A DNA stretch of 64,000 bases from Burkholderiaceae bacterium (GTDB lineage: Bacteria; Pseudomonadota; Gammaproteobacteria; Burkholderiales; Burkholderiaceae_C), in NCBI GenBank assembly GCA_023150375.1, contig JAKLLA010000001.1, positions 124,001 to 188,000 on the forward strand, written 5' to 3'. Both the position numbers and the translations under genes were made by a program. Below the pieces are notes generated by a model. The model did no database searches and was not told where the DNA came from. It worked only from the letters and a program-made list of their open reading frames with translations. Below, piece by piece: positions 11,887-33,352 of the stretch; position 1 is the first letter of the stretch; each line of letters starts with the position of its first letter.

Positions 11887-11899
11887 CGGGCCTCCAGGG

Positions 11900-14936: not shown

Positions 14937-15013
14937 CGCGGAAAATCGCCGCCGGCGACCGCGGAACCGGTCACGCCGGGGCGCGCCGCATCAGGCGCGG
15001 CGGGCAGCGGTGC

Positions 15014-17362: not shown

Positions 17363-17466
17363 ATGCCCACACTCTACCGTGGACGCGGGTGCCCCGACCA
17401 GTTCGGGGCCACCCGGGAGGCCCGGCCGATCACGCCGGCACCCGGGGCGCCGGCCAGAATGGAAAC

Positions 17467-17492
17467 GGGCACGCGGCCGAAGCCGCGTGCCC
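17467..17492 (-). terminator. GC-rich hairpin with UUCG loop between rpoZ and spoT
   Basis: A perfect 11-bp stem (gggcacgcggc / gccgcgtgccc) closes a TTCG tetraloop when read on the minus strand, about 50 bp after the rpoZ stop and 105 bp before spoT. It is followed by GTTTCCATT, only a weak U-tract. It could therefore be a leaky terminator or an RNA-stability hairpin setting the ratio of rpoZ to spoT message. Confidence 0.5.
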
Positions 17493-17540
17493 GATCGGGT
17501 CAGCCTGTCCCGGGCCCGGGCGCCGGGCCCGGCACGTGGG

Positions 17541-17744
17541 TCAGGTCGGGACCTTGCGCAGCATCTCGATGCCCACCTCGCCGGCGGCGATCTCGCGCAG
17601 GGCGGTCACACCGGGCTTGTTCTTGGTCTCGATGCGCGGGGCGTGGCCCTGGCTCAGCATGCGCGCCCGGTAGGTCGCCGCCAGCACCAGCTGGAAGCGG
17701 TTGGGGATCTTGTGCAGGCAGTCTTCGACGGTGATGCGGGCCAT
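17541..17744 (-). CDS. rpoZ: RNA polymerase omega subunit
   Basis: 67-residue subunit that assists assembly of beta' into RNA polymerase. It starts [28 protein letters not shown] and contains the family's conserved [10 protein letters not shown]. Position between gmk and spoT is the standard order in proteobacteria and confirms the call. The gap to gmk is 58 bp. Confidence 0.96.
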
Positions 17745-17802
17745 GGCAGGGTGCTGTGTCTTCGGAGTCGGCCACCGCCCGGCACGACGGCCGCAGCGAG
17801 GG

Positions 17803-18465
17803 TCAGGTCAGCGCCAGCGCATCGAACACGGCAGGTCGGCTGCGACGCTGAGCCGCATATTTTAGCCGCTGCGCGTGCACGATGGTCTTCAGGTCGAACA
17901 GCGCGGTCTCGAACAGGGCGTTCACCACGATGTAGTCGAACTGCCGCGCCTGCGCCACCTCGACGCGGGCGTTGGCCATGCGCTGCTCGATCACCGCCGG
18001 CGCGTCCTCGCCGCGGCGCTGCAGGCGCTGGCGCAGTTCCTCCCACGACGGCGGCAGGATGAAGATCAGCACCGCCTGCGCGAACAGGCGCTTGATCTGC
18101 AGCGCGCCCTGGAAATCGATCTCCAGCACCACGTCCTCGCCGGCGCGCAGGCGCGCCTCGATGGCCTGGCGCGAGGTGCCGTAGCGGTTGCCATGCACCT
18201 GGGCCCATTCGTAGAAGTCGCCGCGCGCGATCATCGCGTCGAAGGTCGGGTTGTCGACGAACCAGTACTCGCGCCCGTGCTGCTCCTGGCCGCGGGGCGC
18301 CCGGGTGGTGTGCGACACCGACACCGCCAGGCGGGCGTCGAGTTCCAGCAGCGCCTTGACCAGGCTGGACTTGCCGGCACCGGAGGGCGCTGCGACGACG
18401 AAGAGGTTGCCGGCGTAGTCCGGCGCCACGGGCTGGGCCGTGCTGGAGGGGGTCTCGGAGGTCAT
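17803..18465 (-). CDS. gmk: guanylate kinase
   Basis: Phosphorylates GMP to GDP with ATP and is essential for guanine nucleotide and (p)ppGpp precursor supply. The P-loop APSGAGKSS lies at residues 26-34, the GMP-binding [17 protein letters not shown] segment at 52-68, and the lid region around [15 protein letters not shown]. The ATG at 18465 gives the normal length (220 residues); the reading frame stays open upstream only because of island DNA. In relatives it follows yicC directly. Here a 23-kb island begins 28 bp before the gmk start codon, so its original promoter arrangement has been broken. Confidence 0.96.
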
Positions 18466-18492
18466 GGAAGACGGCTGCGGGTTTGGATGGCG

Positions 18493-18517
18493 CTCACTCG
18501 ATGTTCTGCACCTGCTC
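18493..18517. repeat. island attachment site, gmk side (25-bp direct repeat, copy 1)
   Basis: Identical over 25 bp to 41681-41705 and different immediately outside on both sides. It encodes, on the minus strand, the residues EQVQNIE plus a stop, that is, the terminal piece of yicC left at the far end of the island. Confidence 0.9.
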
Positions 18518-18575
18518 AGGGAGATCGGCCGGGAAGGCGCATGGATGCTGGGTTTCCGCGTTCGGGCTCTCGGGC

Positions 18576-18595
18576 GGGTACACGTGTGGGTACAC
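18576..18595 (+). repeat. paired gggtacac boxes, left island end (candidate integrase arm sites)
   Basis: Two direct copies of gggtacac (18576-18583 and 18588-18595), starts 12 bp apart, 58 bp inside the left attachment repeat. The same pair with the same 12-bp spacing and orientation, again followed by ggaaat, occurs at 41554-41573 near the right end. Matching repeats at both ends of an integrase element are typical of arm-type integrase binding sites. Confidence 0.6.
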
Positions 18596-18684
18596 AGGAA
18601 ATGGGGGCTGGAGCCGGTGTCTGCTCCGCACAACAGACCGAGCCACGAGTCTAGCCCCGACGACTTGCAAACACGAGCCGCGCA

Positions 18685-19383
18685 TCACGTTTCGGCCTTG
18701 GCCACAGGCGCCATCAGCGGCGGCAAGCAGTCTGCGAATCGCGGCTGAATCTTGCTCATGCGCTTGGCCAGGGCCTCGTCACCCGACAGGATGGCGAGGA
18801 GCATGCCGGCCATCGTGTAGAGCCCGTTGGAGCTGCGCACCACGTTGGCGAGCAGTTCGACCGGGTAGCCCGTCAGGCCGCGCTGGATCGCATGGATGCC
18901 GCCGTGCACGAAGGAGTGCAGGGCCGGTGCGTTCACATCCTTAAAGTGGGTGAGCATTTCGACCGCGCCGTGCGGCGCCTTGCCGACGATCTCGTCAAGC
19001 ATCGTCTTGGCCATCGGCAGCTTGGCGGCGGCCTTCTCTGCAGCGGCATCGAGCGGGGCGACCAGGCGATCGATCTGTTCGTCGGTTGCGGCGTAAAGCA
19101 GCCACGCGGCCCGCGTCAGAGCCTCATGCTGCAGCCGCATCATGCTGATGCCCGCGGTAGGGAGTGGCTGCGCGAGCAGTACCCGAAGTGCGGTTCCATG
19201 CTCCAGCGACGTTTGCGCCGCCGAGAGCGCCACAATCATCCGAGCGCTGTTGTCGAACAGCTGGAGCGTGTCTCCGCCCAGAATGCGGTGCACCTCGGCT
19301 TCCAGATCCCGCGAACGGTCCAGGAGTCGACCGAGTTCGCCAAAGCCGGCGTCCTTCGCCGAGTGCCCATCCAGCCTATTCAT
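18685..19383 (-). CDS. hypothetical helical protein, last gene of the defence operon
   Basis: 232 residues, almost wholly alpha-helical by composition, with many Ala and Leu and no signal peptide or strong membrane span. The pattern (QTSLEHGTALRVLLA... then RLQHEALTRAAWLLYAATDEQID, later VHGGIHAIQRGLTGYP) resembles uncharacterised proteins found scattered in defence islands; I cannot assign a function. A conserved-looking Arg/Glu/Trp helix (residues about 80-105) and the FVHGG motif (about 155) may form an active site. It lies 25 bp downstream of the 447-residue gene on the same strand. Confidence 0.6.
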   Translation of the reverse strand: MNRLDGHSAKDAGFGELGRLLDRSRDLEAEVHRILGGDTLQLFDNSARMIVALSAAQTSLEHGTALRVLLAQPLPTAGISMMRLQHEALTRAAWLLYAATDEQIDRLVAPLDAAAEKAAAKLPMAKTMLDEIVGKAPHGAVEMLTHFKDVNAPALHSFVHGGIHAIQRGLTGYPVELLANVVRSSNGLYTMAGMLLAILSGDEALAKRMSKIQPRFADCLPPLMAPVAKAET

Positions 19384-19408
19384 GGTTAGTCATGGCTTGA
19401 CGATGTTC

Positions 19409-20752
19409 CTAGAGCCCGAGCGAGGCGATGGTCTCCTCGACGTTGACCGCCTGACCGCTTCGCCTCGCCCGAGCAATGACGACCGATCGATTGCCCGCCA
19501 GGCCCTCCTGAACGAGCTGGGCGACTCTCGCCGAGGAGACGGATCGGGTACCTATCCAACCGTCTCTCACGAGGTCAGCGAACAGTGTGTTGCTGAGGTG
19601 CCGACCGCAGTTCTCGAAAGTGATCTGTCGGCCGCCTCGGGGGCCCAACGACGCTGGATCTGCCAAGACGGACTCGATGTGCTCTCGCGACAGGTACATG
19701 CCGGGCAGGAGCGCCTCGGAGAGCACTTCCAGCTGGATCCGCGAGCAGAACTTGAAAAAGAACCCGTCGCCGTGAAGGCGGAATGCCGATACCCCGTCGG
19801 CTGGAGTCCATCGATCGGCAAAGGCTTGGCGAAAGCCCACCATCCGAGCCAGTTCCGCGTCGAAGCGCGCATCCGGTCGGTATACGGCCGTTCGATCGGA
19901 ATCGTCGTCCTCGCGCTCCATGGACTTGTACTGGACCATGGTCCACGCATCGAACTCCTCGTGGTAGTACAGCAGGTCAACGCCGAGCGCATGCTCAACC
20001 GACGAGCGGTTGACGTTGAAGACCTCCAGCTTTCGTCCGCCCGTCGAGAAGACCGCACCCAGCAAAGTCGTGCGTCGTCCGTCCGCCTCTGGGAATGAAG
20101 CAGCATCGCGAGCGATCAACTGATCTTCGATCGTCCGAACGCCTGCCAGACCGTCCAAGAAGGAAGTCAAGTTGTCCCCAGCCGGCGCCGTCCAGCCTTG
20201 CAAGGTCGCTTTGCGCAGCCGTCCGGTTTGGTCGAACACATCGAGCGCCACGCCCGTGGCATCGCGCTCTTGTGCCACGACTTCGGTGCCAGGCCGAGTG
20301 ATGCGCTCGCGGCTCTGCTCGCGAAGGCGCTCCAGCCTTTCGAGGGCTTCCAGGGACGCCGGATCGATCTCGCGCAATGCGCGCTTCAGGCTCTGCCAGG
20401 TCGCACCAGGCACCGGGCCGCCTGATCCCGAGCGGCTGCTGATGATGTTGCGCTGTACACCTTCTCCGATGCGCTGCACAACATCGGCAATCTTGATGTC
20501 GGTCGGGGTGACCTCCGTGAAGTCCACCTTCACCTTGCCGGTGGCAACCCGATGCCCCTTGCGTGCCAACGCCCAGTGTGTGATGGCATCGGGATCGAAC
20601 ATCAAGCCGCAGACCTCCCACTGCCGAACAGACCAGTCGGCGCTGCTGAGCGCGTCCGAGAACCCATCGGCAGGGTCGCGGATGCCGTTCAACAGATAGT
20701 TGCGCCGATCCTCGTCGAAGAGGATCAGGTAGCCGGCGACACGGTCAGGCAT
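19409..20752 (-). CDS. unknown protein with a possible PD-(D/E)xK nuclease core
   Basis: 447 residues, not recognised as a known family. Residues about 255-295 read KLEVFNVN, then GVDLLYYHEEFDAW and TMVQYKSM. The order Glu, Asp, Gln-x-Lys on consecutive strands matches the restriction-endonuclease-like core (E...D...QxK), so a nuclease role is plausible but unproven. The N-terminal 100 residues begin RVAGYLILFDEDRRNYLLNG and may be a separate domain. A helical linker with many Arg and Glu (about 125-160) follows. A strong ggagg ribosome-binding site precedes the ATG. The gene is 57 bp downstream of the RNA ligase gene in the same operon. Confidence 0.6.
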   Translation of the reverse strand: MPDRVAGYLILFDEDRRNYLLNGIRDPADGFSDALSSADWSVRQWEVCGLMFDPDAITHWALARKGHRVATGKVKVDFTEVTPTDIKIADVVQRIGEGVQRNIISSRSGSGGPVPGATWQSLKRALREIDPASLEALERLERLREQSRERITRPGTEVVAQERDATGVALDVFDQTGRLRKATLQGWTAPAGDNLTSFLDGLAGVRTIEDQLIARDAASFPEADGRRTTLLGAVFSTGGRKLEVFNVNRSSVEHALGVDLLYYHEEFDAWTMVQYKSMEREDDDSDRTAVYRPDARFDAELARMVGFRQAFADRWTPADGVSAFRLHGDGFFFKFCSRIQLEVLSEALLPGMYLSREHIESVLADPASLGPRGGRQITFENCGRHLSNTLFADLVRDGWIGTRSVSSARVAQLVQEGLAGNRSVVIARARRSGQAVNVEETIASLGL

Positions 20753-20809
20753 CCTGTCCTCCTTCAGCGCGACGGTGTCTGATGCATGAGCGCAGCACAG
20801 GCGATTGGA

Positions 20810-21514
20810 TCAAGCGGCCAACTCGGTTGACAACCGATTCCACTGAATCTGCCGGTTGCGCCAGTGATCGGTGATCCCCTGCGTGAAGTCGCCGCGGACC
20901 AGCTTCGCTCTTCGCTCGCACCACTCGTCCGACTCTCGCCGCACGACGATGCCCTCGAGCGGGCCGTCGCGAAAACGGCTGGGCCAAACTTGCACCTTCG
21001 TCGACAACTCAGAGAGGGTGAAGCGTCCCTGCGCGAGGCGGGGCGTTGTTGCCAGGCCCAACTGGGTGGCCAGGTTGTCGCGGCGGCGGCTGCTCCAGAA
21101 CTGCCCTGAGCCTCCTTCGAACACATCAAACAGCAAGAACCAGTCGGGCAGCCGTGTGTAGTCCAGCGAGTGGCGAGCGGCGCACCATTCGCCGAACAGC
21201 ATCAGTCCGCGGTCCGCGTGCTCCAGCAGCACGTCGCCGATGCCGCTGCCGTGTGTCGCCAGCCACTGAGGCAGCCGCGCGAACTGCCCGCCATGCGGCT
21301 CGGCCAGATACTGGCCGCGGTTCTGCACACGAAGCTCAGCGTCGGCGCTGAGCGAGAAGCCAAGGTTGGCGCCGTCTACCTTCTCTTCGAGTACGACCTC
21401 GGCCGACAGCAGGGCCGTCGCTTCGGCCACCGACAGCACCTTGTCGTCACGCGGCTCACCGTGCCCCAGCCAGGCCAGGTGCGGAGTGTGCGGAAAGCGA
21501 AAGAAGCCGTTCAT
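20810..21514 (-). CDS. RNA ligase family protein
   Basis: 234-residue ATP-dependent ligase of the covalent nucleotidyltransferase superfamily. All five signature motifs are visible: motif I K45-V-D-G (nucleophile Lys45), motif III FGEWC (107-111, Glu109), motif IIIa FLLFDVFE (126-133), motif IV EGIVVR (187-192) and motif V K204-LVR. It lacks extra domains, so it is close to a minimal RNA ligase of the Rnl2 type. Such enzymes seal nicked RNA, often tRNA cut at the anticodon. Its ATG overlaps the stop of the PIN-domain gene by 4 bp, so a ribonuclease and a ligase are made together. The tail after motif V is short. Confidence 0.85.
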   Translation of the reverse strand: MNGFFRFPHTPHLAWLGHGEPRDDKVLSVAEATALLSAEVVLEEKVDGANLGFSLSADAELRVQNRGQYLAEPHGGQFARLPQWLATHGSGIGDVLLEHADRGLMLFGEWCAARHSLDYTRLPDWFLLFDVFEGGSGQFWSSRRRDNLATQLGLATTPRLAQGRFTLSELSTKVQVWPSRFRDGPLEGIVVRRESDEWCERRAKLVRGDFTQGITDHWRNRQIQWNRLSTELAA

Positions 21515-22044
21515 GGCGGCGGCAGCGAAGGCGCCGGCTTGCTCGGAAATTTCTTTGCGTAGAAGCGGTAGGCGTCGCCCGGACACAAGAAGTCCACCTT
21601 CACGCCTTTGGCCGCGAGTGCGGGCCACCAGTCCAGCCACTTGCAGTCGGCGGCCTGCCAGACCGGGGGCTTCCCGGGGTGCGCGTGCGCCACTGCCGCG
21701 AACTTGCGATCGGGCGCATCGAACTGCGGCTCCAGCGCCGGGTCCGGAAACTCGGCGTAATGGTCCTGCGCCAGTTCGGTGAGCGGCACCGTTTCGACCC
21801 GCTTGGCGTTGGCACTGTTCTGCAGCAACCACTTCAGAAACACGTTGCCGGCCCCTTTCTGCGCGTTCGGCCGGTTCTTGTGCAGGTATTCGCCGACGAT
21901 GCGGAAGCCGTCGTCGATCACTGCAATGCCTCCGGCCTGCATCGCTTGCAGGCGCCGCACGCACTCGTTCACGCAGTCTTCGGAGACGTCCGCATGGTCG
22001 CCATTGGCCACCAGCAGCACGTTGGTGTCGATGACGGCCTTCAT
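21511..22044 (-). CDS. PIN-domain ribonuclease-like protein
   Basis: 177-residue protein with the PIN fold. The four acidic metal ligands expected in PIN nucleases are present: D6 (VIDTN), E52 (IVGEYL), D112 (APDRKFAAVA) and D133 (QAADCKW). Many PIN proteins are single-strand RNA endonucleases. No small antitoxin gene is adjacent. Instead it overlaps the upstream ATPase gene by 4 bp and the downstream RNA ligase gene by 4 bp, suggesting that the ATPase controls its activity. The C-terminal 40 residues are unlike VapC toxins and may contact a partner. Confidence 0.82.
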   Translation of the reverse strand: MKAVIDTNVLLVANGDHADVSEDCVNECVRRLQAMQAGGIAVIDDGFRIVGEYLHKNRPNAQKGAGNVFLKWLLQNSANAKRVETVPLTELAQDHYAEFPDPALEPQFDAPDRKFAAVAHAHPGKPPVWQAADCKWLDWWPALAAKGVKVDFLCPGDAYRFYAKKFPSKPAPSLPPP

Positions 22045-23438
22045 TCGGCCGGCTGCCCTGCCGCTTGCGCCTTCTTGCGGTTCATCGCGGCCAGGGTGCG
22101 CGCGGCAATGTCCGCCATCTCGTCGCCAAAGAAGTTGGGCGGCCAGTTCTCGATGTCGCCGAAGAGATTGAGCTTCAGCGGCTCCAGGTCGGTCCCTGCG
22201 GCCGAGCGGCGGCAGAAGTACACCGCCACGTCGTCAGGCGTCAGCACACCCTCGGCCACGCGGCGCTGCAGTCGGTTGAGGAAGTGCTCGGAGTGGCTCT
22301 CCACGATCAGTTGTACCTGGCGCTCCACGCCGTCCTGGCGTGACTGAATGGCCGAGATGAAAACGTCCGCCAGCTCGGCCTGAACCTGCGGGTGCAGGTG
22401 GATCTCCGGCTGCTCCATCCAAACGGTGGAGTGCGGCGGGCAGTAGAAGGCTTGCACCAGCGCCGGCAGCACTTGCGAGACACCGAAGCCCACGTCGGTG
22501 ATCTTGACCTCCGGAGACTTCGGCCCCGTCTTGACCAGCACCTCGTACTCCTTGCGGCCCACTGCCACCGGCCGCACCGAGAAGTCACTGATCACGCCCA
22601 GGTCCTTGAGCCAGGCGGCGATGAACTCGGCAAACGCCTGCTTTGACCTGCGCGGGCCGCGGTTGAGCTGCCGCGCGTCGCCCTGTGCCGCCAGAATGGC
22701 CGCGATGGTCTGCTCGCCCATCGGCCCCACACTGGCAGGCGTGTCGCCCGACCATTGGTAGATGCGCTGTGGGTGGCTGCGCAGCGGGCCCAGGTACGAC
22801 AGGTTGTCGAGCATGGCCTCGGTGGCGAGTGCGAAGTCGGCCATGAAGCCGGCATTCTTGAATCGAGCGGCGGTCACGTCCGACAGACGGTAGAACTTCT
22901 CGGGCTCTTCCAGCGGCCACTGCCGGCCGTCCGCCTTTCTGAATTCATAGTGCTTCGACTGCAGGTGCAGCTTGCGCTGCGTGTCGCGATGAAAGTCGAC
23001 GTCCAGCACCGTGGCGCCGCTGCCCTGCAGGGCGTAACGCATGGTCTGCACCTCTGGCTGCGCACTCCTGCCAGCAGCAATCTCCACCTCGAGCTTCATG
23101 TCCTGGCCGGTGTAGCGTCGCGTCGGTTGCAGCGGGTCCTTCACGTCCAGTGCCTTGGGCAGTCGCCAGCCAAGCTCGAAGCCCAGCGTCTGCTGCAGGT
23201 CGTGGCCGTGCAGGCAGTCCTCGAAGGTGCCCAGGTCGATGAGCGAGGCCGAGTCACCCAAGTGCAGCGCACGCTTGCGATCCGTGGACCGCGCTGTTTG
23301 CTGCAAGGCCAGAAGCAGGTGGCCCAGGCTGCTCTTGCCCGCGCTGTTGGCCCCGAAGATCACGGTCAATGGCGCCAGCCGGATCGGCCCGGTGTCTTTC
23401 CAGGCCTTGAAGTTCTTGATGCGTAGGTGGGTCAACAT
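22041..23438 (-). CDS. SMC/OLD-like AAA ATPase with DUF3696-type C-terminus
   Basis: 465-residue ABC-type ATPase. The Walker A motif GANSAGKSS is at residues 29-37, after the typical start LTHLRIKNFKAWKDTGPIRLAPLTVIFG. Signature-like VGFGVSQVLP, Walker B VWMEQPEIHLHP and the His switch VESHSEHFLNRL follow. The final segment LNLFGDIENWPPNFFGDEMADIA is characteristic of DUF3696 ATPases. Such ATPases act as sensors or regulators in several phage-defence systems and need a partner effector, here the coupled PIN protein. No TOPRIM nuclease domain is present. It starts 4 bp after the stop of the restriction helicase gene. Confidence 0.85.
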   Translation of the reverse strand: MLTHLRIKNFKAWKDTGPIRLAPLTVIFGANSAGKSSLGHLLLALQQTARSTDRKRALHLGDSASLIDLGTFEDCLHGHDLQQTLGFELGWRLPKALDVKDPLQPTRRYTGQDMKLEVEIAAGRSAQPEVQTMRYALQGSGATVLDVDFHRDTQRKLHLQSKHYEFRKADGRQWPLEEPEKFYRLSDVTAARFKNAGFMADFALATEAMLDNLSYLGPLRSHPQRIYQWSGDTPASVGPMGEQTIAAILAAQGDARQLNRGPRRSKQAFAEFIAAWLKDLGVISDFSVRPVAVGRKEYEVLVKTGPKSPEVKITDVGFGVSQVLPALVQAFYCPPHSTVWMEQPEIHLHPQVQAELADVFISAIQSRQDGVERQVQLIVESHSEHFLNRLQRRVAEGVLTPDDVAVYFCRRSAAGTDLEPLKLNLFGDIENWPPNFFGDEMADIAARTLAAMNRKKAQAAGQPAE

Positions 23439-23442
23439 GGGG

Positions 23443-26400
23443 TCAGTCCTTTGGCGAGGCTTCTGCGGCTGCCGCCAGTGTCAGTACTCGATCGGCATTG
23501 TCGGCCGCGACGTCGTGCCGGCTCAGGATGTCTTGAATCTCCGCCGGCTTGAAGGCGACGTCCCAGCACCAACTGCCGAACCCGCCCTTCGCGTTCACCG
23601 CTTTCACCCACAGCGCCAGCGCATCGCGCTTGGCACTGTTCATGGGCGAGTCTTCGCCCTTGATCTCCAGCACCAGGTTGCGCCCGTTGGCCAGACGCAC
23701 GATGAAATCGGGGATGAATCGTTTGCGCGAGCCGCCCCAAAGGTAGTAGATCTGGAAGCCGAGGTGGTCGTTCTTGGCGTAGGCATGCACCTTGTCGCTG
23801 GCGTCGAACAGGGTGGCGGCGTAGATCTCCCACGAACTGTCACCGACGACGTGGCTGATCTGCGACTTCCGCGTCGGCTGGTTGCCCTTGGTGGTGTACC
23901 AGGTGCGCATCGCCCGCGTGCTGCCGATGGGTTGCTCGGGGTCGAACACCGGCTCGATGCTCGCCACGTTCTGCTGTTCAACGTGTTTCACCACGTGCTG
24001 CACGATGAGGTCCATGTTCAGCGCCACCAGGATGCGGCGCCGCACGCCCTCGGCGTGAAACAGGCTCGGGATCACGAGCTTCGTCGACCCCAGGAATTGC
24101 TCCACCAACCGTATGAGCTGGAACACCAGGTACTCGCGGTTCCCCGTGAATTTGCCGGCAAGCTGGTCGAAGGCCTTGCGCGCCGCCTGGAACACGATGC
24201 GCTGCTCGCGGAACTCCTCGGGCAGCTTGCTCAGATCGATGTTCGTCGTCTTGCTCAGGTCGGTGGCGCCGCCCACCGCCGGTGCCAGCTCGGCCGTGAT
24301 CACGGTCTTGGCCGGGTCCAGCACCAGGTCAGGCACCTTCGACCACTGCACCGACAGCGCCGGCTTCACCACCGTGTCCACCCGCAGCAGGTTGGGCCAG
24401 CGCACCTCGAACTCGTTGCGCGAAGGCAGTGACTCGATCTGGGTGCTCGGTTTCGGCGGGGGCGGCGTCTCGCCGCCTTCTCCCGCGTCCACGAACACCG
24501 ACAACGGCACGCCGAACACATTGACGTACTCGGGCACGAAGAGGCCGTTCTCGTCCTTGTCGTAGCCTACGCGGCGCAAGCCACGGCCGATGACCTGCTC
24601 GCACAGCAACTGGCTGGTGAATGCGCGCAGACCCATGATGTGGGTGACGTTCTTCGCGTCCCAGCCCTCGGACAGCATGGCCACCGAAATCACGCTCTGC
24701 AGCCGCTGGCCGGCCTGCCCGTGCTTGCCGACGTTGTCCACGATGGCGCGCAGCAGGTCTTCCTTGTCCAACGCCAGCAGCCGCTCTTCCCGGTCCTTTG
24801 GCAGCCGGGCTGCCTTCACGATGTCGCGCAGGCGGTTAGCGTATTCGGTGGTGTCGAGCAGGTAGTCGCGCACCGCGGGCTGCAGCGGTGCCATCCGGAT
24901 CAGCACCTCCAACTGCGCATCCACCGCCTCCTTGGCGCGCTCGGCCCAATCTCCCTCGGTCACGCCGAGGTGCCACGCCAGCACCTGCAGGCGGTCGGAG
25001 TCCTTCTTGGCCTCGTCCAGCTTCCTGGCCACCCCTTCGGGCAGCGACAGCGCCTTCACCAGCGACCCCAGCCGCGCCTTGAACACGCTCTCCGAACCGG
25101 CCTTCTCGCCAATCTCGGCCTTCTCCAGCACCTTGGAGTCCACACGCAGGGTCTGCTCCGGTGACTTCAGCTCCGGCCAGTGCGCATCGCCATGGTTGAG
25201 GTAGTGCTCGATGCGCGCCGCAGTCTCCACGCGGTTGCACACGGTCAGCATCACGGGTGGCGAGTGGTGCCCCGCCTTCTGCCAGTCGTGCAGGGCCACG
25301 CGCCAATCAGCGCCCAGCAGCGTGTAGGCGTCCTGCACCAGCTTGGGCAGCGCCTCGTGCGGCTCGGCGCCGCGGCGGTTCAGGTCCTGCTGAACATCGG
25401 GGTCGCGGTACAGGTGGTAGAGCTTGGAGCGGTAGCTCTTCGCATCGGGCAGCGCATCGTCACGGATCACCACGCGCGGCGTCTTCACCAGCCCGGCCTC
25501 GATGGCGTCGGTCAGGCCGAAGTCGCTGACGATCCAGCTGAAGAGGCCCTCTTCGCTGTTGGTCTTGCCGGTGGGCGCGAACGGCGTGGCCGACAGGTCG
25601 AAGCAGCGGCCGATGCGCCGCGTGTGGTGGATGCGGTCCAGCCCCTCGATCCAGCGCGTGGCCTCGTCCAGGTCCAGGCCCAGGCGTTCCGCGTCCGCCT
25701 TGCTGATCTTCACGTCGGCCGGCTTGCGGTAGGCGTGGTGCGCCTCGTCGTTGATCACCACGATGTCGCGGTGCTGCGCCAGCCGGCCCAGCACGCGACG
25801 GGTGTAGACCTCGTCGGTCTCGCGCCCTTTCTTGACCACCGACCGGTCCGGCTCCTTCGCCGGCATCAGGGTGTGCCAGTTCTCCACCAGCACCTCGGCC
25901 TGGTTCAGCTTCTGCCGCAGTGATTCGGACGGACAGGTCGAGAACTCGTCATACGCATTGGCGGGGTTGCCCGGCAGAAGCACCTGCAGGCGCTCCTTCA
26001 CGGTCAGGCCCGGCGCCACGATGAAGATGGCGCGCGAGAAGTCTCGTGGCCGCTTCGGGTAGGTCACCGCATTCAGCACCTGCCAGGTGATGATCATGGC
26101 CATCACCGTGGTCTTGCCCGAGCCGGTGGCCATCTTGCTGCACACTCGCTCCCAAGGCCCGCCATCGCCTTGCAGGAATACGCCCTGGCGGTAGGCGTCG
26201 GCCGCCTCCACCCACCAGATCAGGGTCTCGATGGCCTCCAGCTGGCAGAAGTAGAACGGGTGCTGGCGCGCACCCTGGTCTTGCCAGTGGGCCAGCAGCT
26301 GGCGGGTGACCGCGGTGATGCCCGGGTAGTCGTCAGCGCGCCAGCGCTCGATGCGTTGGCGGATTTCGTTCACCTGGTCCAGCGTCTCCACACGGCGCGT

Positions 26401-26541
26401 GTTGTTGCGCACGTCGTAGATCTCGTAGCTGGCGGGCCGGCGCTCCTGCACCAGCGTCAAGGTGCCATCGCGCTGCGGCTGCCAGTGCCGGCGCGGCGCC
26501 TCGAAGGGCGAGTTGATGATGACGTTGCCAGGGGTCTTCAT
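23443..26541 (-). CDS. type III-like restriction helicase-endonuclease (Res subunit)
   Basis: 1032 residues. The SF2 motor has Walker A ATGSGKT (138-144), DEAH box INDEAHHAY (about 275), motif III SATPF and motif VI CEQVIGRGLRR. The C-terminal PD-(D/E)xK nuclease reads PDFIVRL...LVLEIKG at about 940-962. It resembles the BPTD_3080-type restriction enzymes that pair with a DPPY methyltransferase. In this family ATP-driven translocation from an unmethylated site leads to cleavage. The start overlaps the small membrane-protein gene by 4 bp, and the methyltransferase gene is just upstream, so the pair forms one restriction-modification system. Confidence 0.88.
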   Translation of the reverse strand: MKTPGNVIINSPFEAPRRHWQPQRDGTLTLVQERRPASYEIYDVRNNTRRVETLDQVNEIRQRIERWRADDYPGITAVTRQLLAHWQDQGARQHPFYFCQLEAIETLIWWVEAADAYRQGVFLQGDGGPWERVCSKMATGSGKTTVMAMIITWQVLNAVTYPKRPRDFSRAIFIVAPGLTVKERLQVLLPGNPANAYDEFSTCPSESLRQKLNQAEVLVENWHTLMPAKEPDRSVVKKGRETDEVYTRRVLGRLAQHRDIVVINDEAHHAYRKPADVKISKADAERLGLDLDEATRWIEGLDRIHHTRRIGRCFDLSATPFAPTGKTNSEEGLFSWIVSDFGLTDAIEAGLVKTPRVVIRDDALPDAKSYRSKLYHLYRDPDVQQDLNRRGAEPHEALPKLVQDAYTLLGADWRVALHDWQKAGHHSPPVMLTVCNRVETAARIEHYLNHGDAHWPELKSPEQTLRVDSKVLEKAEIGEKAGSESVFKARLGSLVKALSLPEGVARKLDEAKKDSDRLQVLAWHLGVTEGDWAERAKEAVDAQLEVLIRMAPLQPAVRDYLLDTTEYANRLRDIVKAARLPKDREERLLALDKEDLLRAIVDNVGKHGQAGQRLQSVISVAMLSEGWDAKNVTHIMGLRAFTSQLLCEQVIGRGLRRVGYDKDENGLFVPEYVNVFGVPLSVFVDAGEGGETPPPPKPSTQIESLPSRNEFEVRWPNLLRVDTVVKPALSVQWSKVPDLVLDPAKTVITAELAPAVGGATDLSKTTNIDLSKLPEEFREQRIVFQAARKAFDQLAGKFTGNREYLVFQLIRLVEQFLGSTKLVIPSLFHAEGVRRRILVALNMDLIVQHVVKHVEQQNVASIEPVFDPEQPIGSTRAMRTWYTTKGNQPTRKSQISHVVGDSSWEIYAATLFDASDKVHAYAKNDHLGFQIYYLWGGSRKRFIPDFIVRLANGRNLVLEIKGEDSPMNSAKRDALALWVKAVNAKGGFGSWCWDVAFKPAEIQDILSRHDVAADNADRVLTLAAAAEASPKD

Positions 26542-26993
26542 GCCGGCACCTCTGGCTGGGTGGCCGGCTGCGGCGGGCAGACCCGCCGCAGCTCCGCGAA
26601 GTCCCCATTGGCCCGCGCCGCGATCTCGCTCCAGGCGCGGGCAAAGGCGGGGCGCTTCAGGTTCGTGCGGATGCCTTGTTCCCAGAACGCCCAGGTGGCG
26701 TCACTGATCCGCCCCTGGTCATGCAGGAAGACCTGGCTGTTGCACAGGTCGAAGTAGCGATAGAACTCGTCGAGCTTCTCGCGGTGCAGCTCGTCGCTGA
26801 TGGGTTCGCCCAGCAGTGCAGGCAGCGGCAGCGTCGAAGCCAGCTCACGGTATTCGCGCACCAGGGCGTCTTCGAACGTGGTCGTGCCCTGCTTGTGCAT
26901 GTGCCACAGCTGCCACGCCGCCACCACGGCGGCCACGGCCGTGAACACACCGCCCACGCCGCCCCCCAGCGTGGCCCAGTCCTGCCACGTCAT
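26538..26993 (-). CDS. small single-TM protein between mod and res
   Basis: 151 residues, of unknown family. One hydrophobic segment at residues 8-27 (GGGVGGVFTAVAAVVAAWQLW) is followed by a positively charged boundary (HMHKQ) and a soluble, mostly helical domain rich in Glu and Arg, so the bulk probably lies in the cytoplasm. It overlaps the mod stop and the res start by 4 bp each. This placement means that it is made in step with the restriction enzyme. It may tether or regulate the complex at the membrane. Classical type III systems have no such gene. Confidence 0.7.
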   Translation of the reverse strand: MTWQDWATLGGGVGGVFTAVAAVVAAWQLWHMHKQGTTTFEDALVREYRELASTLPLPALLGEPISDELHREKLDEFYRYFDLCNSQVFLHDQGRISDATWAFWEQGIRTNLKRPAFARAWSEIAARANGDFAELRRVCPPQPATQPEVPA

Positions 26994-29900
26994 GCCGTGG
27001 CCCCCGAAGGAGATTCGACAAGCGGCAGGATCTTCAGCGACTCGATGCCCCGGTCATCGACGATCTTCACCGCCGCCTTGCCGTTCTTGCCCGCCTCGAA
27101 GGGCAGCGACACCGTGCCGTGGAACTGCTCCAGCAGCGCCTCGTCCAGCTCGGCGCGGATGCTCTTCTTCAGCTTGCGCCAGCCTTCGTCCTTGCCGGCC
27201 ATGGGAAAGAACACCTGGTGCGGGAAGAGGCTGCGGCCGTCGTAGTCGGTGTCCAGGCTCCACATCGCGATCTTGGCCTTGCCGCCCGAGATGAGTTCGC
27301 CCTTCACGGTGTCGAAGTAGTCGAAGCCCATCACCTCCACTTGCCAGCGGCCGTCGGGCCGCTGCGTGGCCTGCACCTCGGGCTGGCCCATCAGCCAAAA
27401 GCTCTGGTTGCTGGAGCGGGCCTTTTTCAAGTCTTCGGTCAGCAGGTCGGTGTTCATCTGCGCCTTCAGCGCGGTGATTCCCTTGAAGGCGTCGATATCT
27501 TTCGCGGCCTCGGGGTCGAAGGTGAAGGCGCAGAACACGATCATCTTCGGCCGCGGGAACAGCTCGCCCGCCTCGCCGATGGCGTGTTCCACCTGCCGCT
27601 GTTCCAGCGCGCCGTGCTCGGGGCCGAAGCTCACCACCACGCGCTCGCCGCTTTCCGCCAAGGTGCCGGTAGCGTGCAGGCAGGTGGTGCCGGCCATCAC
27701 CTCTAGCTCGGCAAACTTCAGCATCTGCCCGCCCTTGCCGCGGATGCCCGTCTTCAGCAGCTCGTCTCGCCACTGCTGCTGGCGGCTGGTTTCGCCGCTG
27801 CGGGCGATGCTGGTCTGGTACGACTGGTCTTCCGACGGCGTGGCGGCAGCGCCGCCTTCGGCCGCCTCCAGGCTCAGCACGGTGGGGAAGGGCACCGCCT
27901 CCACCGTGAACGGGCCGGTGATGCGCAGCTTGGTCTTGCTGGGCTCGGGCTTGTCGTAGAGCGTTTCGCTTTCGGCGTTGGCGGCGATGGAACGGTCCAT
28001 CTCGGCCTGCATGCGCTGGCGGGCGGCGTGAAAGGCGTTGAAGGGCTCGCGCAGGGCGTCGGGCCAGCCGGTGGGTGGGGAGCCGTCGTCGTTGGGGAAT
28101 GGCACTTCCCACTCGTGAAGCTCGGCGCCCTTCTTGCCCAGCGCCAGCTTCTGGCCTTTGCGCACGCCTTCGGAGACGGTCAATGACTCGGCCGGAGGGT
28201 GCTGCGCCAGCGCAACGTTCAGCGCCGCGAGCGCCGTCTCGATGGCCGGGTGCAGCCGGTCGTAGATGGCGTCGATGTCCGCGTTGTTGGCGATGGACTT
28301 CAGCGTGACGTGCGGCACCGTCTTGTAGATGAAGCCGCCCTTCAGGCCCTCGTGCGGGTAGGCCAGTTCGTAGTAGTCGTAGCTGGCCGTCATCAGCCGC
28401 TGCTTGGCCAGCGTGACGGCCACGCGTGAGGTGTCGCAGGTGATCCAGCGGCGGCCCCACTTCTCGGCGACGAAAGCAGTGGTGCCGGAGCCGCAAGTGG
28501 GGTCGAAGACAAGGTCTCCTGGGTCGGTGGTCATGAGCACACATCGCTCAATAACCTTTGTGGTGGTCTGAACTACATAGACCTTTTCATCATTGAAGCC
28601 ACCGGATTGCGTATCGAGCCAAACGTTGTTTAGAGACTTGGCCGGATTGAAGTCCCAGAAGAGCTTGAACGCGACATCGTTGCCAAGTTCAAAGATGTGA
28701 CCAGATTTTGCTACCCGAACCATGTCGCGGTCGGGTTCAACTGTCCAATGGCGATTCGGATTGCAGGGAAACTCCCTCCCGTTGAAGCGAAAGGTTTTTG
28801 GCGTGCTGGAAGGACCGTCTGAGTTCAGTGGGCCATGGCGAAAGATTCGGCCCAATCCAGCGGTCTTGGATCGATCGTCAGCCTCTTCTTTCGACAGCCA
28901 TCGCCAGCGTCCGTCGGGGAGTTGCAGCCTTCTGTAGTACGTGTCGTCCGAAGGCGGATGTTCGTCGAACTCACGAAGATCTCGGTATTTGGCCTTTCCT
29001 GGTGCCTTTGAGTACCAGACGACATAGTCCTCGATTGCCGACAGGGTGCTCTTCGTGAAGCCTCCGGACTTCTGGATCACGATCTGCGCGACGAAGCACT
29101 CAGGAGCGAAGATGTCATCAAGCAGCTCGCGGACATGATGGACATTGATGTCCGAGATTTGGACGAACACGCTGCCCGTCTCCGAGAGCAGCTGTTCTGC
29201 CAAAACGAGACGGTCGCGCAAGTAGCTCAGGTACGAGTGAACGCCAAGCTCCCAGGTGTCTCGAAACGCTTTGACCATTTCGGGCTCTTGTGTCAGGTCT
29301 GCGTCACTTCGATCCTTGACCTCTCGCTTCCCGACAAACGGCTGGAAGTTGCTCTTGTATGTGATCCCGTACGGCGGGTCGATGTAGATCATCTGCACCT
29401 GCCCGGCCATGCCCTCCTTGACCAGCAGGCTGTTCATCACCAGAAGGCTGTCGCCGGCGATCAGCCGGTTGGCCCAGCCCTTGTCGTGGCGGTAGAAGTC
29501 CACCGCGCTGCGTAGCGGCAGGTTCTCGAACGGTGCTTCGAACAGGCTGGCCTGGCGCGCCAGCGGTGAGGGTTCCTCGGCCTTCAACCGGGCCGTTGAC
29601 TTGTTCGTGGCTTCTTCCAAGCGCTTGCGCACGGCCGACAGGATGCTCATCGGGTCGATGCGCTCGTGCACGTGCAGGCTGACCGTGTCCACCTCGAAGC
29701 TGGTGCGCTCGGCCTTGCCGGCCCATTGCAGGTAAGGCGCGCCGCGGCGCTTGATCTCCTCCAGCGCGCCGCGTTCGGGTGGCGCCTGCATCTTGGCCGT
29801 CAGGCGTTGGCGCAGGTTGCCGACCACCTCACGCACGGCTGCCTCGCCGCTGCCGGCCAGCGCATGGTCGAGCCAGGCCACGATCTCGCCGATCTGCTGC

Positions 29901-30475
29901 TGCACATGGCTGCTGCCTTCGGCCAGGGCGTCGTCGATCAGGGTCTCCAGCTCGGCCCGCGCGCTGTCGAAGTTCAGCACCGGGTCCAGATGCGGGTTGT
30001 AGGCCCAGGTCTGCTTGGGTTGCTGCGGGTCGCTGGCTTCGCTGACCAGGCCCACTTCGGGGTTGTTCTTGCGCCGGTCGTTGTGGCGGTAGCTCAACAC
30101 CTGGGCCGGTTCGTCCGCATCGGCGGCGCGCAGCTTCTGGGGCTTGGGCTGGGTGGCCTTGGGTCGTGCAGCGGCATCGGCCGCATCCACGGGCGTGGGG
30201 GCTTCGCCCTGCAAGGCGAAGCTATCGCTGCCCGCTGCAGCACCGGCGGCACGGCCCGTGGAGCCGCCGCGGCCCTTGCCCTTGACCACCAGGCCGCGTG
30301 CCACCAGGTCTTCGCGCAGGGTTGTGAAGTCTTCAGCCGTCGCGGTGAGCCCCGCTGCCAGCGCAGCTTGGGTCCACTGCGCCAGCAGGCTGCCATTGCC
30401 CACCATGCTGCCGTTGGCGGGCAGCAGGTCCAGCAGGCATTGCTGCAGGCGTTGTCGTGCTTCTTGTTCTGTCAC
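26990..30475 (-). CDS. type III-like DNA (adenine-N6) methyltransferase (Mod subunit)
   Basis: 1161 residues. The catalytic motif DPPYG is at about 363-367 and the SAM-binding motif DPTCGSGTT at 658-666. This order (IV before I) marks a beta-class methyltransferase, and the 290 residues between them form the target-recognition domain. That middle stretch (about 28540-29350) is visibly less GC-rich than the rest. A GTG start at 30475 is chosen because it overlaps the vapC stop as GTGA; the open frame continues upstream but there reads antisense to vapBC. The long N-terminal region (1-300) is helical with an Ala/Pro/Lys-rich linker near 80-120. Modification protects host DNA from the Res enzyme. 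Confidence 0.88.
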   Translation of the reverse strand: MTEQEARQRLQQCLLDLLPANGSMVGNGSLLAQWTQAALAAGLTATAEDFTTLREDLVARGLVVKGKGRGGSTGRAAGAAAGSDSFALQGEAPTPVDAADAAARPKATQPKPQKLRAADADEPAQVLSYRHNDRRKNNPEVGLVSEASDPQQPKQTWAYNPHLDPVLNFDSARAELETLIDDALAEGSSHVQQQIGEIVAWLDHALAGSGEAAVREVVGNLRQRLTAKMQAPPERGALEEIKRRGAPYLQWAGKAERTSFEVDTVSLHVHERIDPMSILSAVRKRLEEATNKSTARLKAEEPSPLARQASLFEAPFENLPLRSAVDFYRHDKGWANRLIAGDSLLVMNSLLVKEGMAGQVQMIYIDPPYGITYKSNFQPFVGKREVKDRSDADLTQEPEMVKAFRDTWELGVHSYLSYLRDRLVLAEQLLSETGSVFVQISDINVHHVRELLDDIFAPECFVAQIVIQKSGGFTKSTLSAIEDYVVWYSKAPGKAKYRDLREFDEHPPSDDTYYRRLQLPDGRWRWLSKEEADDRSKTAGLGRIFRHGPLNSDGPSSTPKTFRFNGREFPCNPNRHWTVEPDRDMVRVAKSGHIFELGNDVAFKLFWDFNPAKSLNNVWLDTQSGGFNDEKVYVVQTTTKVIERCVLMTTDPGDLVFDPTCGSGTTAFVAEKWGRRWITCDTSRVAVTLAKQRLMTASYDYYELAYPHEGLKGGFIYKTVPHVTLKSIANNADIDAIYDRLHPAIETALAALNVALAQHPPAESLTVSEGVRKGQKLALGKKGAELHEWEVPFPNDDGSPPTGWPDALREPFNAFHAARQRMQAEMDRSIAANAESETLYDKPEPSKTKLRITGPFTVEAVPFPTVLSLEAAEGGAAATPSEDQSYQTSIARSGETSRQQQWRDELLKTGIRGKGGQMLKFAELEVMAGTTCLHATGTLAESGERVVVSFGPEHGALEQRQVEHAIGEAGELFPRPKMIVFCAFTFDPEAAKDIDAFKGITALKAQMNTDLLTEDLKKARSSNQSFWLMGQPEVQATQRPDGRWQVEVMGFDYFDTVKGELISGGKAKIAMWSLDTDYDGRSLFPHQVFFPMAGKDEGWRKLKKSIRAELDEALLEQFHGTVSLPFEAGKNGKAAVKIVDDRGIESLKILPLVESPSGATA

Positions 30476-30960
30476 TTGATCTCCCGTTTCTTCTGGGTGG
30501 CCGCTCTGCGCTTCGTCTGCGGCGGCTTGGCATTGGCCGGCTCGCTCGGCCAATCCTCGACGGTGAGGCCCGGCACCCGCTGGAACTCGCGCAGGTTGCG
30601 CGTGAGCAGCGTCATGCCGCGCGAGCGTGCATGGGCGGCGATGAACAGGTCGTGGCTGCCGACGGGGGTGCCGCTTCGCTCCAGCGTGGCGCGGATGTCG
30701 GCATAGTGCTCGTCGGCCGGCGTGTCCAGCGGCAGCACCGTCAGCGCCTGCAGCAGTTGCTCCACCCGCTGTGTGAGCGGTGCCGAGCCCTTGCGCTGTG
30801 CGCCAAAGCGAAGCTCGCACGCCGCGACGATGCTGGTGCACACCGTGTCGGGCTCGAGGGCATTCAGTCGCTGGGCGAGGATGCCTTGAGGGTTGCGAAT
30901 CAACTCGGAGAGCGCGTTCGTGTCCAGCATGCAGGGCGAGGCAGTTTGCGACGTCGCCAT
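30472..30960 (-). CDS. vapC: VapC-type PIN toxin
   Basis: 162 residues. PIN-domain ligands are D13 (MLDTN), E49 (ACELRFGA) and D104 (SHDLFIAAHA), with N122 in LLTRNLREF, the full VapC set. VapC toxins cleave tRNA or rRNA when freed from antitoxin. The ATG is preceded by the vapB stop in a TGATG overlap. The C-terminus has an unusual 25-residue Lys/Arg-rich tail (KPPQTKRRAATQKKREIK). The stop overlaps the GTG start of the methyltransferase gene by 4 bp, so the toxin gene is coupled to restriction-modification. Confidence 0.9.
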   Translation of the reverse strand: MATSQTASPCMLDTNALSELIRNPQGILAQRLNALEPDTVCTSIVAACELRFGAQRKGSAPLTQRVEQLLQALTVLPLDTPADEHYADIRATLERSGTPVGSHDLFIAAHARSRGMTLLTRNLREFQRVPGLTVEDWPSEPANAKPPQTKRRAATQKKREIK

Positions 30961-31220
30961 CACAGGGCATCCCGCGGCTGGAGCGGCAGGTCTTCCACCT
31001 CGGGCAGGGCGTCGTCCATCGGGGCCCACGACGCCAACAGGTCACGCAGCTTGTGCTTGCGGATGGGCGTCAGGATGAGGCTGTCGCCCTCCTTGCGAAT
31101 CAGCACCTCGGACCCTTCCATCTCCAGTTCACGAGGAATCCGGACCGCCTGGTTGCGGCCGTTGCGGAACAACGCGGCATGGCGCTCAGTCACCTGGGCC
31201 TCCGAGGGTGGGTGTGGCAT
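30960..31220 (-). CDS. vapB: VapB-type AbrB-fold antitoxin
   Basis: 86-residue antitoxin of the swapped-hairpin (AbrB/SpoVT) class: RHAALFRNGRNQAVRIPRELEMEGSEVLIRKEGDSLILTP covers the DNA-binding part and the acidic tail (DDALPEVEDLPLQP) the toxin-binding part. Two ATG codons, 31220 and 31232, are possible; each lies within a catatg box of an inverted repeat. I use 31220. It heads the ten-gene defence operon, so VapB autorepression may control everything downstream. Confidence 0.85.
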   Translation of the reverse strand: MPHPPSEAQVTERHAALFRNGRNQAVRIPRELEMEGSEVLIRKEGDSLILTPIRKHKLRDLLASWAPMDDALPEVEDLPLQPRDAL

Positions 31221-32125: not shown

Positions 32126-33352
32126 GGCCGGCTCCTCGTTTTGGACGGGTCACGGTGGCATGGCGATGGGCTGGATCAACCCCGTCAGGGCCGGGCCGCA
32201 GTCGGGTCTGCCCGGCCGTTGTGTCACTCGGAGTTCACTCGGGTGATTGCCGGCAGTCACTCCAATGACACCGTTTCGGCGTTTTCAGGGCAGTTTTCTG
32301 CAGTGACAGCCGGGTGTCACTGCAGTCGAACTTCGTGGGGTCGAAGGGCCTGCATTGGGCGGTTCGAAGGCACGCTCCGTGAGCCGCCGCCACCTGTTCA
32401 TCCGAACCAGAGGCCAAGCCCCCGCATGTCAACCCCTGGCGTCGCAACGTTGCCGACGCCGAGCTGGACATAGAGCCGCCTCACCTGGCACATCAACGCC
32501 CACGCAAGCGCACGCTTTCGGCGGCGCTTGGTGGTGGCAGTGCCCGCAAGGCCGTTGACGCTGCCGACGTGCCCGGTGTCCACTGCAGGCTCCCGAAGGG
32601 CTCTTGGCCCTTGCTCATCGCGAGCGAACAGGCGTCGCAGTCGTTACCTGCCCTTGAAGCCCTGGTCCTTGAACCGGGCGTGCCGCAGGCCTTGAGCCTG
32701 CGGTCCCGATGAAACCACTCGCGGAGCTGATGTCTCCGGCCTGCCGGCGTTGATCGCCGGGCGCTCCTGAAGCGCGCCGCTGACTGACCCATGGGGCGCT
32801 GGCACCCGATGCCTTGCGCCCGTGCACGCCATCCGTTCGAGCTTCTGCCGCGCCTTGGGGTTTTGTCCTGGGGCCGGCGCAGTGCCTGGTCGCCCTGGCC
32901 CCATTGGGGGCCGCGGCCGGCGCTGGCTGCTCGTGCACCTGACTCCGCCCCGGCATTTCGGTAAGGGGCGGCTCCAGCAGGTGGATGGCGACGCGAAAGC
33001 CATAGACCTGATCCATCGCAGCCAGCCAGGCCCGACCTGGCTGACGGCAGCGCCATGCCCTTGGAGGCCGGCGTTGCCAACCGCTCGCGCGTCGCGGAAA
33101 CCCGTGCGCGGGCCGGATCAACCCCGTTTCCATTTTGAAGACCGACCGAGCTGGCGCCGCTGCCTTCAACAGGCGACGGCGCCGGCGAACCCGGAGTAGG
33201 CGCAGCAGGCCGTGGCCAGCCTGCTGCGCGACATCACCAGGCCACGCCAGGCCGGCGCGACGGAATCCGCGCCGGCCGGCGGCACAGCGATTCCACCTTC
33301 AACCCGGTGCGTGCCCCTCGGGAGGGCGCGGGCCACTGTCCACGGAGGGCGT
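32126..33352. other. 1.2-kb region with no convincing gene
   Basis: All open frames here have atypical composition (Arg/Pro/Ala-rich products without family likeness), overlap one another on both strands and lack ribosome-binding sites. The first 220 bp carry repeated gtcact/tgac words and an exact dyad at 32301-32322. The rest shows no tRNA-like, CRISPR-like or rRNA-like structure. It may be decayed mobile DNA, a replication or attachment region of the neighbouring recombinase gene, or a non-coding RNA. Confidence 0.5.
32301..32322. repeat. perfect inverted repeat cagtgaca-N6-tgtcactg
   Basis: Eight-base arms, exact, with a 6-bp gccggg centre. Further partial copies of the half-site (gtcact or tgaca) lie at 32223, 32256 and 32266. 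The cluster looks like a protein-binding region, 176 bp upstream of the hypothetical membrane protein gene and about 1 kb before the second recombinase gene. Confidence 0.5.

Follow-up and report, generated by a model that had tools for sequence, protein, structure and literature searches.

In the excerpts of the literature used here, the RNase PrrC is described as embedded in the type I restriction system EcoprrI, which silences it until T4 infects, and the damage caused by PrrC requires healing before it can be sealed, a repair that T4 performs with its own enzymes (PMC2610378, PMC3874165). The cuts of AriB, the nuclease of PARIS, have been shown to leave a 3'-OH end and are expected to leave a 5'-phosphate (PMC12409363). 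Pairs of an OLD-ABC ATPase and a PIN endoRNase have been described as backup effectors of BREX (PMC12839542), in a paper whose main text does not contain the search terms "RNA ligase" or "ligase". Bacterial RNA repair by a host RNA ligase has been tied to immunity in the Pnkp1-Rnl-Hen1 system (PMC4411300). The locus compared with these systems here lies in a window of 64,000 nucleotides from a Burkholderiaceae bacterium (assembly GCA_023150375.1, contig JAKLLA010000001.1, positions 124,001 to 188,000), to whose first nucleotide all window coordinates refer. Ten genes follow one another on the minus strand of this window (18685-31220), and at least two independent units are combined in this operon, namely a restriction pair of type III-like Mod and Res and a mobile cassette encoding an ATPase, a PIN-domain RNase and an RNA ligase. 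It is the cassette that forms the conserved unit.

The ATPase and the PIN protein together are already known as Hma-embedded candidate 03 (HEC-03) of PADLOC-DB v2; the HEC systems reportedly originate from Payne et al. 2024. The first cassette gene (22041-23438, minus strand), the proposed sensor and switch, encodes an OLD/AriA-like ABC ATPase with AAA_15 and AAA_21 matches and a DUF3696 tail, and corresponds to HEC-03B over residues 1-458 of 465 (3.3e-130). The second (21511-22044, minus strand), the proposed effector, encodes a predicted PIN-domain RNase that has no Pfam match and corresponds to HEC-03A over residues 1-159 of 177 (1.4e-21). The third (20810-21514, minus strand), the proposed resealer, encodes a minimal Rnl2-like ATP-dependent RNA ligase (PF09414, 1.8e-32), which is matched by no PADLOC model. 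The original prediction for this stretch, that the gene set belongs to no named system, thus has to yield for the ATPase and PIN pair, and stands, within the models and literature searched, for the ligase as a third member. No Hma model is among the matches listed for the ten window genes; embedding in Hma is found in a relative, L082 (the handles L007 and the like denote the individual loci), whose run contains HmaC (1.1e-64), HmaB (2.7e-62) and a helicase (PLD_Helicase 7.8e-66, HmaA 2.6e-54), and in its homologue L086.

The remaining described systems resemble the cassette in part. Like PARIS, it has an ABC ATPase of the broad OLD group adjoining an RNase, and the AriA model matches the window ATPase (2.7e-23), with a best stretch that covers only part of the protein and far below the HEC-03B match. 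Unlike PARIS, its nuclease is a PIN protein by models and residues and not the TOPRIM nuclease AriB, and an RNA ligase is added. The likeness to PrrC and EcoprrI lies in placement: in three relatives the cassette occupies the slot between hsdS and hsdR of a type I operon (L014, L015, L017), two more adjoin type I genes (L030, L074), and in the window itself the partner is type III-like. The prrC gene occupies the same place between hsdS and hsdR. The cassette differs from PrrC in dividing ATPase and RNase between two proteins, in having a PIN protein as its nuclease and in bringing a ligase of its own. Pnkp1-Rnl-Hen1 comprises further repair proteins and no cutter, whereas in the window a cutter and a ligase share an operon; family profile searches recognised no RNA end-healing enzyme among the ten window genes. 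No BREX protein is among the matches listed for these genes, and the ATPase scores 25.8 bits against the MAD3 model of MADS, for which the cut-off is 420. A unit of ATPase, PIN and RNA ligase was not found described in the portions of the literature searched, which did not include the HEC source preprint or a survey of ABC ATPases.

The conservation of the cassette was followed through its ATPase in 84,980 genomes, one per species. The scan returned 137 relatives, of which the 80 loci most similar to the window ATPase were examined together with flanks of up to 10 kb each, so that the sample leans to close kin. Many of the contigs are short, and 58 of the 80 loci, L010-L012 among them, reach 3 kb or more upstream of the ATPase. 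Downstream of the ATPase a PIN match is present in 79 of the 80, the contig of the other one (L030) stopping 112 bp past the ATPase; seven of these 79 PIN frames are shorter than 165 residues (L025, L026, L054, L055, L061, L066, L067), two of them being cut by the contig end. The ligase comes next in 70 of the 80 loci, and four of the ten loci without it lie on contigs that end too early (L026, L030, L055, L066). The coupling seen in the window, where ATPase and PIN as well as PIN and ligase overlap by 4 bp, recurs in 52 of 79 and 42 of 70 loci, respectively. According to database labels the 80 loci span nine named phyla, with 64 in Pseudomonadota, and some labels may be binning errors, such as the Chloroflexota label of L010, which is 98% identical to the window.

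The same unit is recovered when other starting points are taken. A ligase query matched 17 of 399 genomes, and among ten other ligase loci fetched (at least 42% identity) the ATPase is adjacent in nine, the contig of L148 ending at the ligase; as L146, L149, L150 and L154 probably count among the 80 already, about five of these are new. Six more ligase matches are weaker (36-40%) and fall within longer frames; the two that were fetched (L156, L157) have no ATPase match. In L008, L009, L147, L151 and L153 the ligase is 54-67% identical to that of the window, the ATPase is 31-35% identical and the PIN protein is beyond the reach of tblastn, and the gene between ATPase and ligase keeps the same five acidic residues. 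For the divergent ATPases of L151, L153 and L155 the best PADLOC model is HEC-03B. On plasmids the ATPase occurs in 12 records, and five of the six that were viewed carry an annotated RNA ligase as the third gene; one viral relative of the ATPase was found (L177). Distance matrices of 73 loci agree for ATPase and PIN (Spearman 0.62, permuted maximum 0.29) and for PIN and ligase (0.52, permuted maximum 0.26).

The residues taken to form the active sites do not vary in any of the three proteins. In alignments from which short rows were dropped (PIN below 165, ligase below 220 and ATPase below 420 residues), the acidic set of the PIN protein, D6, D44, E52, D109 and D112, is invariant in 81 of 81 rows. 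Equally invariant are the ligase residues K45-x-D47-G48, R66, E109, F129, E187 and K204 (76 of 76 rows), among which we take K45-x-D-G, E109, F129, E187 and K204 to be the nucleotidyltransferase motifs I, III, IIIa, IV and V. In the ATPase the Walker A residues G29, N31 and G34-K35-S36, Q47, the stretch E342-x-P-E-x-H-L-H-P, E380 and H382-S-E-H are the same in 87 of 87 rows. The predicted structure of the ligase (pLDDT 92) is closest to Naegleria NgrRnl (5.6e-9), trypanosome REL1 (8.6e-8) and T4 Rnl2 (4.5e-7). Among its PDB relatives, the Naegleria entry 5cot bears the title of a nick-sealing RNA ligase, and the T4 Rnl2 structure was determined on a nicked duplex; by its model the window protein resembles the nick-sealing RNA ligases. 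With 234 residues it has little beyond the nucleotidyltransferase domain and lacks the accessory domain of the Rnl2 type. Full-length chains of T4 Rnl2 and NgrRnl have 317-340 residues (T4 Rnl2 chain 2hvq, 317); the 18 best PDB matches have chains of 233-340 residues, and the shortest, 1s68 (233 residues), is a part of T4 Rnl2. When the PDB was searched by sequence, the ligase retrieved an antibody chain (E 0.0011), and 38 residues of the ATPase matched an OLD protein (4.3e-4).

The genes around the cassette behave differently. The original prediction had described ten overlapping or closely spaced genes on one strand, and the coordinates of the open reading frames agree with it in set, strand and junctions. 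The operon begins with a VapB-type antitoxin gene (30960-31220; PF04014 7.7e-9; NF040493 9.1e-15, below its cut-off) and a gene for a VapC-type PIN toxin (30472-30960; PF01850 2.3e-18; NCBIfam VapC models below their cut-offs), which overlap by 1 bp. These are followed by mod (26990-30475, GTG start), a gene for a 151-residue protein with one N-terminal hydrophobic stretch as judged by eye (26538-26993), and res (23443-26541), all joined by 4-bp overlaps from vapC onward. The Mod protein is a type III-like DNA methyltransferase (N6_N4_Mtase 9.1e-29; PADLOC MTase_III 1.6e-151), and Res belongs to the BPTD_3080 family of restriction helicase-nucleases (NF046055, E 0, 1115 bits against a cut-off of 800; ResIII 3.4e-9). 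The family assignments proposed earlier for VapB, VapC, Mod, Res, the DUF3696-like ATPase and the RNA ligase were all borne out by profile searches, as was the pairing of Mod and Res as a type III-like restriction system; as in type III systems the two share an operon, here with the 151-residue gene between them. A 4-bp gap separates res from the ATPase gene, and behind the ligase follow, after gaps of 57 and 25 bp, the genes of p447 (19409-20752), which has no family match at E 0.01, and p232 (18685-19383), a DUF6988 protein (PF22491 5.4e-64; PADLOC PDC-S52 6.9e-77), two separable neighbours outside the cassette. A consensus scan of the operon found no sigma-70-like promoter, compared with a mean of 0.8 after shuffling, and 7 terminator-like sites, compared with a mean of 8.4; since these counts are near the shuffle means, the scan is uninformative on internal breaks in transcription.

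That these genes form one composite system of eight or ten members, as the original prediction held, is rejected. Tight overlaps do run throughout the window, and L010 and L011 contain all ten genes in the same order, yet these two are the only loci beyond the window with the full set and are close kin. The ATPases of L010-L012 are 97-98% identical to that of the window (Mod 78-81%), and L012, with seven of the ten genes, has no match to the 151-residue protein, p447 or p232. Across the 80 loci, Res, VapB and VapC matches beside the ATPase are confined to L010-L012, which for Res amounts to 3 of 80, or 3 of the 58 loci with 3 kb or more upstream; weak Mod matches (32-34%) are also present in L042 and L078, and L010 and L011 alone combine the cassette with p447 and p232. 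Conversely, Res searched in 399 genomes of the order gave 22 matches at 1e-60, the window's own included. Eight others with at least 52% identity were fetched, 13 more distant ones (35-39%) being left out. Mod lies beside or near Res in seven of the eight, the eighth (L140) beginning near a contig edge, and ATPase, PIN, ligase and the other window genes, the 151-residue protein included, have no match in any of them. Here the Mod-Res pair departs from the window arrangement by occurring without the cassette. Homologues of p447 (26-36% identity) were found in 4 of 249 other genomes and on nine plasmids, with no relative in a scan of viral contigs, and none of the seven contexts examined contains a cassette or Mod/Res match. 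Mod-Res, p447 and the cassette each occur apart elsewhere, which is largely the outcome that the original prediction had named as its refutation. The ten genes of the operon are thus separable blocks that were brought together locally and recently, and a single integrated system is highly improbable.

Some features of these neighbouring blocks deserve mention in their own right. In L141-L143 about 1.9-2.0 kb lie between the mod and res matches, where the window has the 151-residue protein, a possible cargo slot. One p447 homologue shares 4 bp with a DUF6119 gene (L176:6989-9981), and another follows a gene for a HipA-family toxin (L175:5569-8383). An integrase gene of the window (33212-34549, plus strand; PF12835 and PF12834) lies about 2 kb off the 5' end of the operon, consistent with a mobile island. 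Directly downstream of p232, on the minus strand (14991-18633), are what we take, from translations read by eye, to be core genes resembling spoT/relA, rpoZ and guanylate kinase.

Although the ten genes are not a unit, the association of the cassette with restriction recurs in another form. With a run defined as genes on the same strand with gaps below 400 bp, and with restriction reference proteins typed by PADLOC and Pfam, restriction or methylase genes are found in the run of the cassette in 25 of the 80 loci (23 of the 58 that extend 3 kb or more upstream); fragments below 250 bp in L058 and L063 were left out of this count. The partners are diverse. A DrmMI/type IIG-like methylase is present in 13 of the 25, nine of these also having a Dpd/DISARM-like helicase, which is fragmentary in some (e.g., L045, L077). 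Type I genes are the partner in the five loci named above, the type III-like pair of the window in L010-L012, Hma in L082 and L086, a classical type III system in L042 and another methylase-helicase pair in L065. Outside the 80, L007 and L009 add two cases of DrmMI/type IIG-like methylases. The direct upstream neighbour within 100 bp is a restriction gene in 18 of 72 loci, with junctions of -7 to 93 bp. In two Endozoicomonas loci (L054:4669-6561, L039:1341-3266) the gene about 100 bp upstream of the cassette encodes a 630-residue GyrB-like protein, with gyrase B and Toprim domains in L054; that of L039 falls in the same cluster.

A first measure of enrichment, in which the reference proteins matched 59 of the 237 genes that flank the cassette within its runs and 3 of 601 elsewhere, was rejected as a control because the reference proteins had themselves come from cassette neighbourhoods and the comparison is unfair. 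A methylase motif gives an independent count: among genes of at least 300 residues it is present in 23 of 126 in cassette runs versus 1 of 234 in the remaining runs of these loci, among those of at least 400 residues in 23 of 105 versus 1 of 129, and in a stricter form in 6 of 126 versus 0 of 234 (genes of at least 300 residues), a count that still mixes genes of differing length. Since methylase-motif genes cluster in cassette runs across several unrelated restriction types, it is unlikely that the cassette and restriction genes are joined by mere chance. The idea that DNA restriction is paired with an RNA-level response thus retains a link of this kind, while the ten-gene form in which it had been put forward falls away.

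Insertion into a type I operon is seen in L014, L015 and L017, loci of one clade, where the cassette is flanked by hsdS, with an overlap of 7 bp, and by hsdR, across a gap of 16 bp. The slot is not always filled in this way, as none of 14 sibling type I loci found with the HsdR of L014 (35-82% identity) has a cassette match. In L193 (HsdR 77-78%) and L194 the hsdS and hsdR matches are 56 and 20 bp apart, and in L192 no more than 898 bp precede hsdR. In seven others (L197, L198, L200, L201, L203, L204, L205) 1.1-2.1 kb lie between the two matches, a possible cargo slot, though this distance may partly be hsdS itself. On a quick-search tree of 82 ATPases, 67 of them labelled by context, the context label changes at least 20 times, compared with a mean of 26.0 for shuffled labels, and type I alone changes three times; the 20 changes are inflated to an unknown degree because labels partly depend on how much contig is present, as in the near-identical L020 and L022, which are labelled differently because the contig of L022 starts 3.6 kb upstream.

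Taken together, these observations point to a Mod-Res pair accompanied by a separate cassette, and the mechanism that we propose for the latter is one to which we give an even chance. The ATPase would keep the PIN RNase inactive and would sense that restriction is blocked or that DNA is disturbed by a phage, as in PARIS and PrrC. Once released, the PIN protein would cut an essential RNA, the first candidate being tRNA, and translation would halt. PIN enzymes are metal-dependent hydrolases and are expected to leave 3'-OH and 5'-phosphate ends, and these are the ends that nick-sealing RNA ligases need. Since Rnl2-type ligases can use such ends directly, the cassette would hold a cutter together with a chemically matched sealer. 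If the cassette PIN leaves a 5'-phosphate and a 3'-OH, the ligase could join them directly, without the end-healing enzymes required after PrrC damage; leaky or completed cutting would be undone, and the shutdown would become reversible. We infer the sensing, the RNA target, the end chemistry of the cassette PIN and the resealing from analogy with these systems and families.

Several observations weigh against a fixed three-gene unit that acts with restriction. The ligase is absent from five loci in which 1.3 kb or more follows the ATPase (L034, L064, L067, L068, L069), and L060, with 570 bp past the PIN gene and no ligase match, probably lacks it too. Three of the five are Acidobacteriota of one clade, and the PIN frame of L067 has only 42 residues. 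In the ligase-less loci with a full-length PIN protein its active site is intact. An HNH nuclease gene (10900-11658) takes the place of the ligase on the A. soli plasmid L172, the ATPase of which is annotated in two pieces, and the middle gene of L151 has no PADLOC or Pfam match. The distances of ATPase and ligase agree only weakly (Spearman 0.34, permuted maximum 0.31), suggesting that the ligase has probably been exchanged at times. The PIN model is confident (pLDDT 96), and none of its Foldseek matches in the PDB passes E 0.001: an exosome chain has the best E-value (0.023), and those of highest probability are VapC toxins, with VapC21 a weak match (probability 0.85, TM 0.49/0.61, E 0.16). 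On the ATPase tree the commonest embedded label, Druantia/DISARM-like, changes 13 times versus 13.6 in shuffled labels and is thus unclustered. Finally, the cassette run contains no gene recognised as a restriction gene in 55 of the 80 loci (35 of the 58 whose contigs extend 3 kb or more upstream), and a restriction partner is therefore not obligatory, although some of these labels stem from short contigs.

Two further variations around the ligase position were seen. In L007 a 244-residue gene without Pfam or PADLOC match (11368-12102) stands there and overlaps by 4 bp a gene of 1048 residues that matches a helicase reference. In L031 an HNH protein matching the same PADLOC model as that of L172 follows the ligase.

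The 55 loci without a partner are what one would expect if the cassette were a free-standing anti-phage module, a passenger of islands that is co-transcribed with restriction genes for shared regulation only and has no physical or signalling link to them. The nearest kin of the window cassette outside L010-L012 (L013) stands alone, and five of the six plasmid records viewed have no annotated methylase or restriction gene directly beside the cassette, though on the plasmid L168 a short helicase gene is present upstream. A mere passenger fits less well with the concentration of methylase-motif genes in the cassette's own run and not in other runs of the same loci, with the restriction genes directly upstream, and with the insertion between hsdS and hsdR, albeit in a single clade. 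We therefore consider this explanation possible but somewhat unlikely.

The tight coupling of PIN and ligase genes and the expected match of their end chemistry can also be read in a second way, in which the ligase is a toxin guard, a functional antitoxin that constantly reseals background cuts by the PIN protein and, in the window, perhaps by VapC. The operon does contain two distinct PIN RNases, VapC (30472-30960) and the HEC-03A protein (21511-22044), and the cuts of both could in principle be resealed by the ligase. Against a guard of this kind, four of the five loci that lack a ligase despite having room for it keep a full-length PIN protein with its acidic residues, and VapB/VapC matches occur in just the three loci L010-L012 of the 80. 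As an obligatory antitoxin the ligase is rejected, being absent from those five loci, and in its looser form the explanation is doubtful. The small size of the ligase, little more than a nucleotidyltransferase domain, would also suit an effector or an enzyme against counter-defense, which might, for example, misjoin PIN-cut halves or adenylate RNA 5' ends and so block phage repair; excerpts of one study propose multiple RNA cuts as a bypass of phage RNA ligases (PMC3710099). The ligase motif residues that were checked are conserved in all 76 rows, which argues against this role, and we regard it as improbable.

The preferred reading, a restriction-associated cassette with its own resealing enzyme, bears on how phage defense may be reversed. 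The known restriction-tied RNA-cutting alarms, PrrC and PARIS, shut translation down, and for PrrC the repair that has been described comes from the phage. A cutter and a matched ligase in one cassette would make a reversible shutdown of translation in phage defense directly testable with three small genes. It appears, moreover, that one guard module is employed alongside systems of the type I, type III, Hma and Druantia/DISARM-like kinds, and because it recurs beside several restriction types, the slots between hsdS and hsdR and those adjacent to methylase genes can be searched for further cargo. More tentatively, and at rather less than even odds in our judgement, the cassette may be a portable guard of many restriction types that cuts a host RNA once restriction has been overcome and later has that cut resealed by its own ligase, so that the outcome for the cell would be an exit from dormancy and not death.

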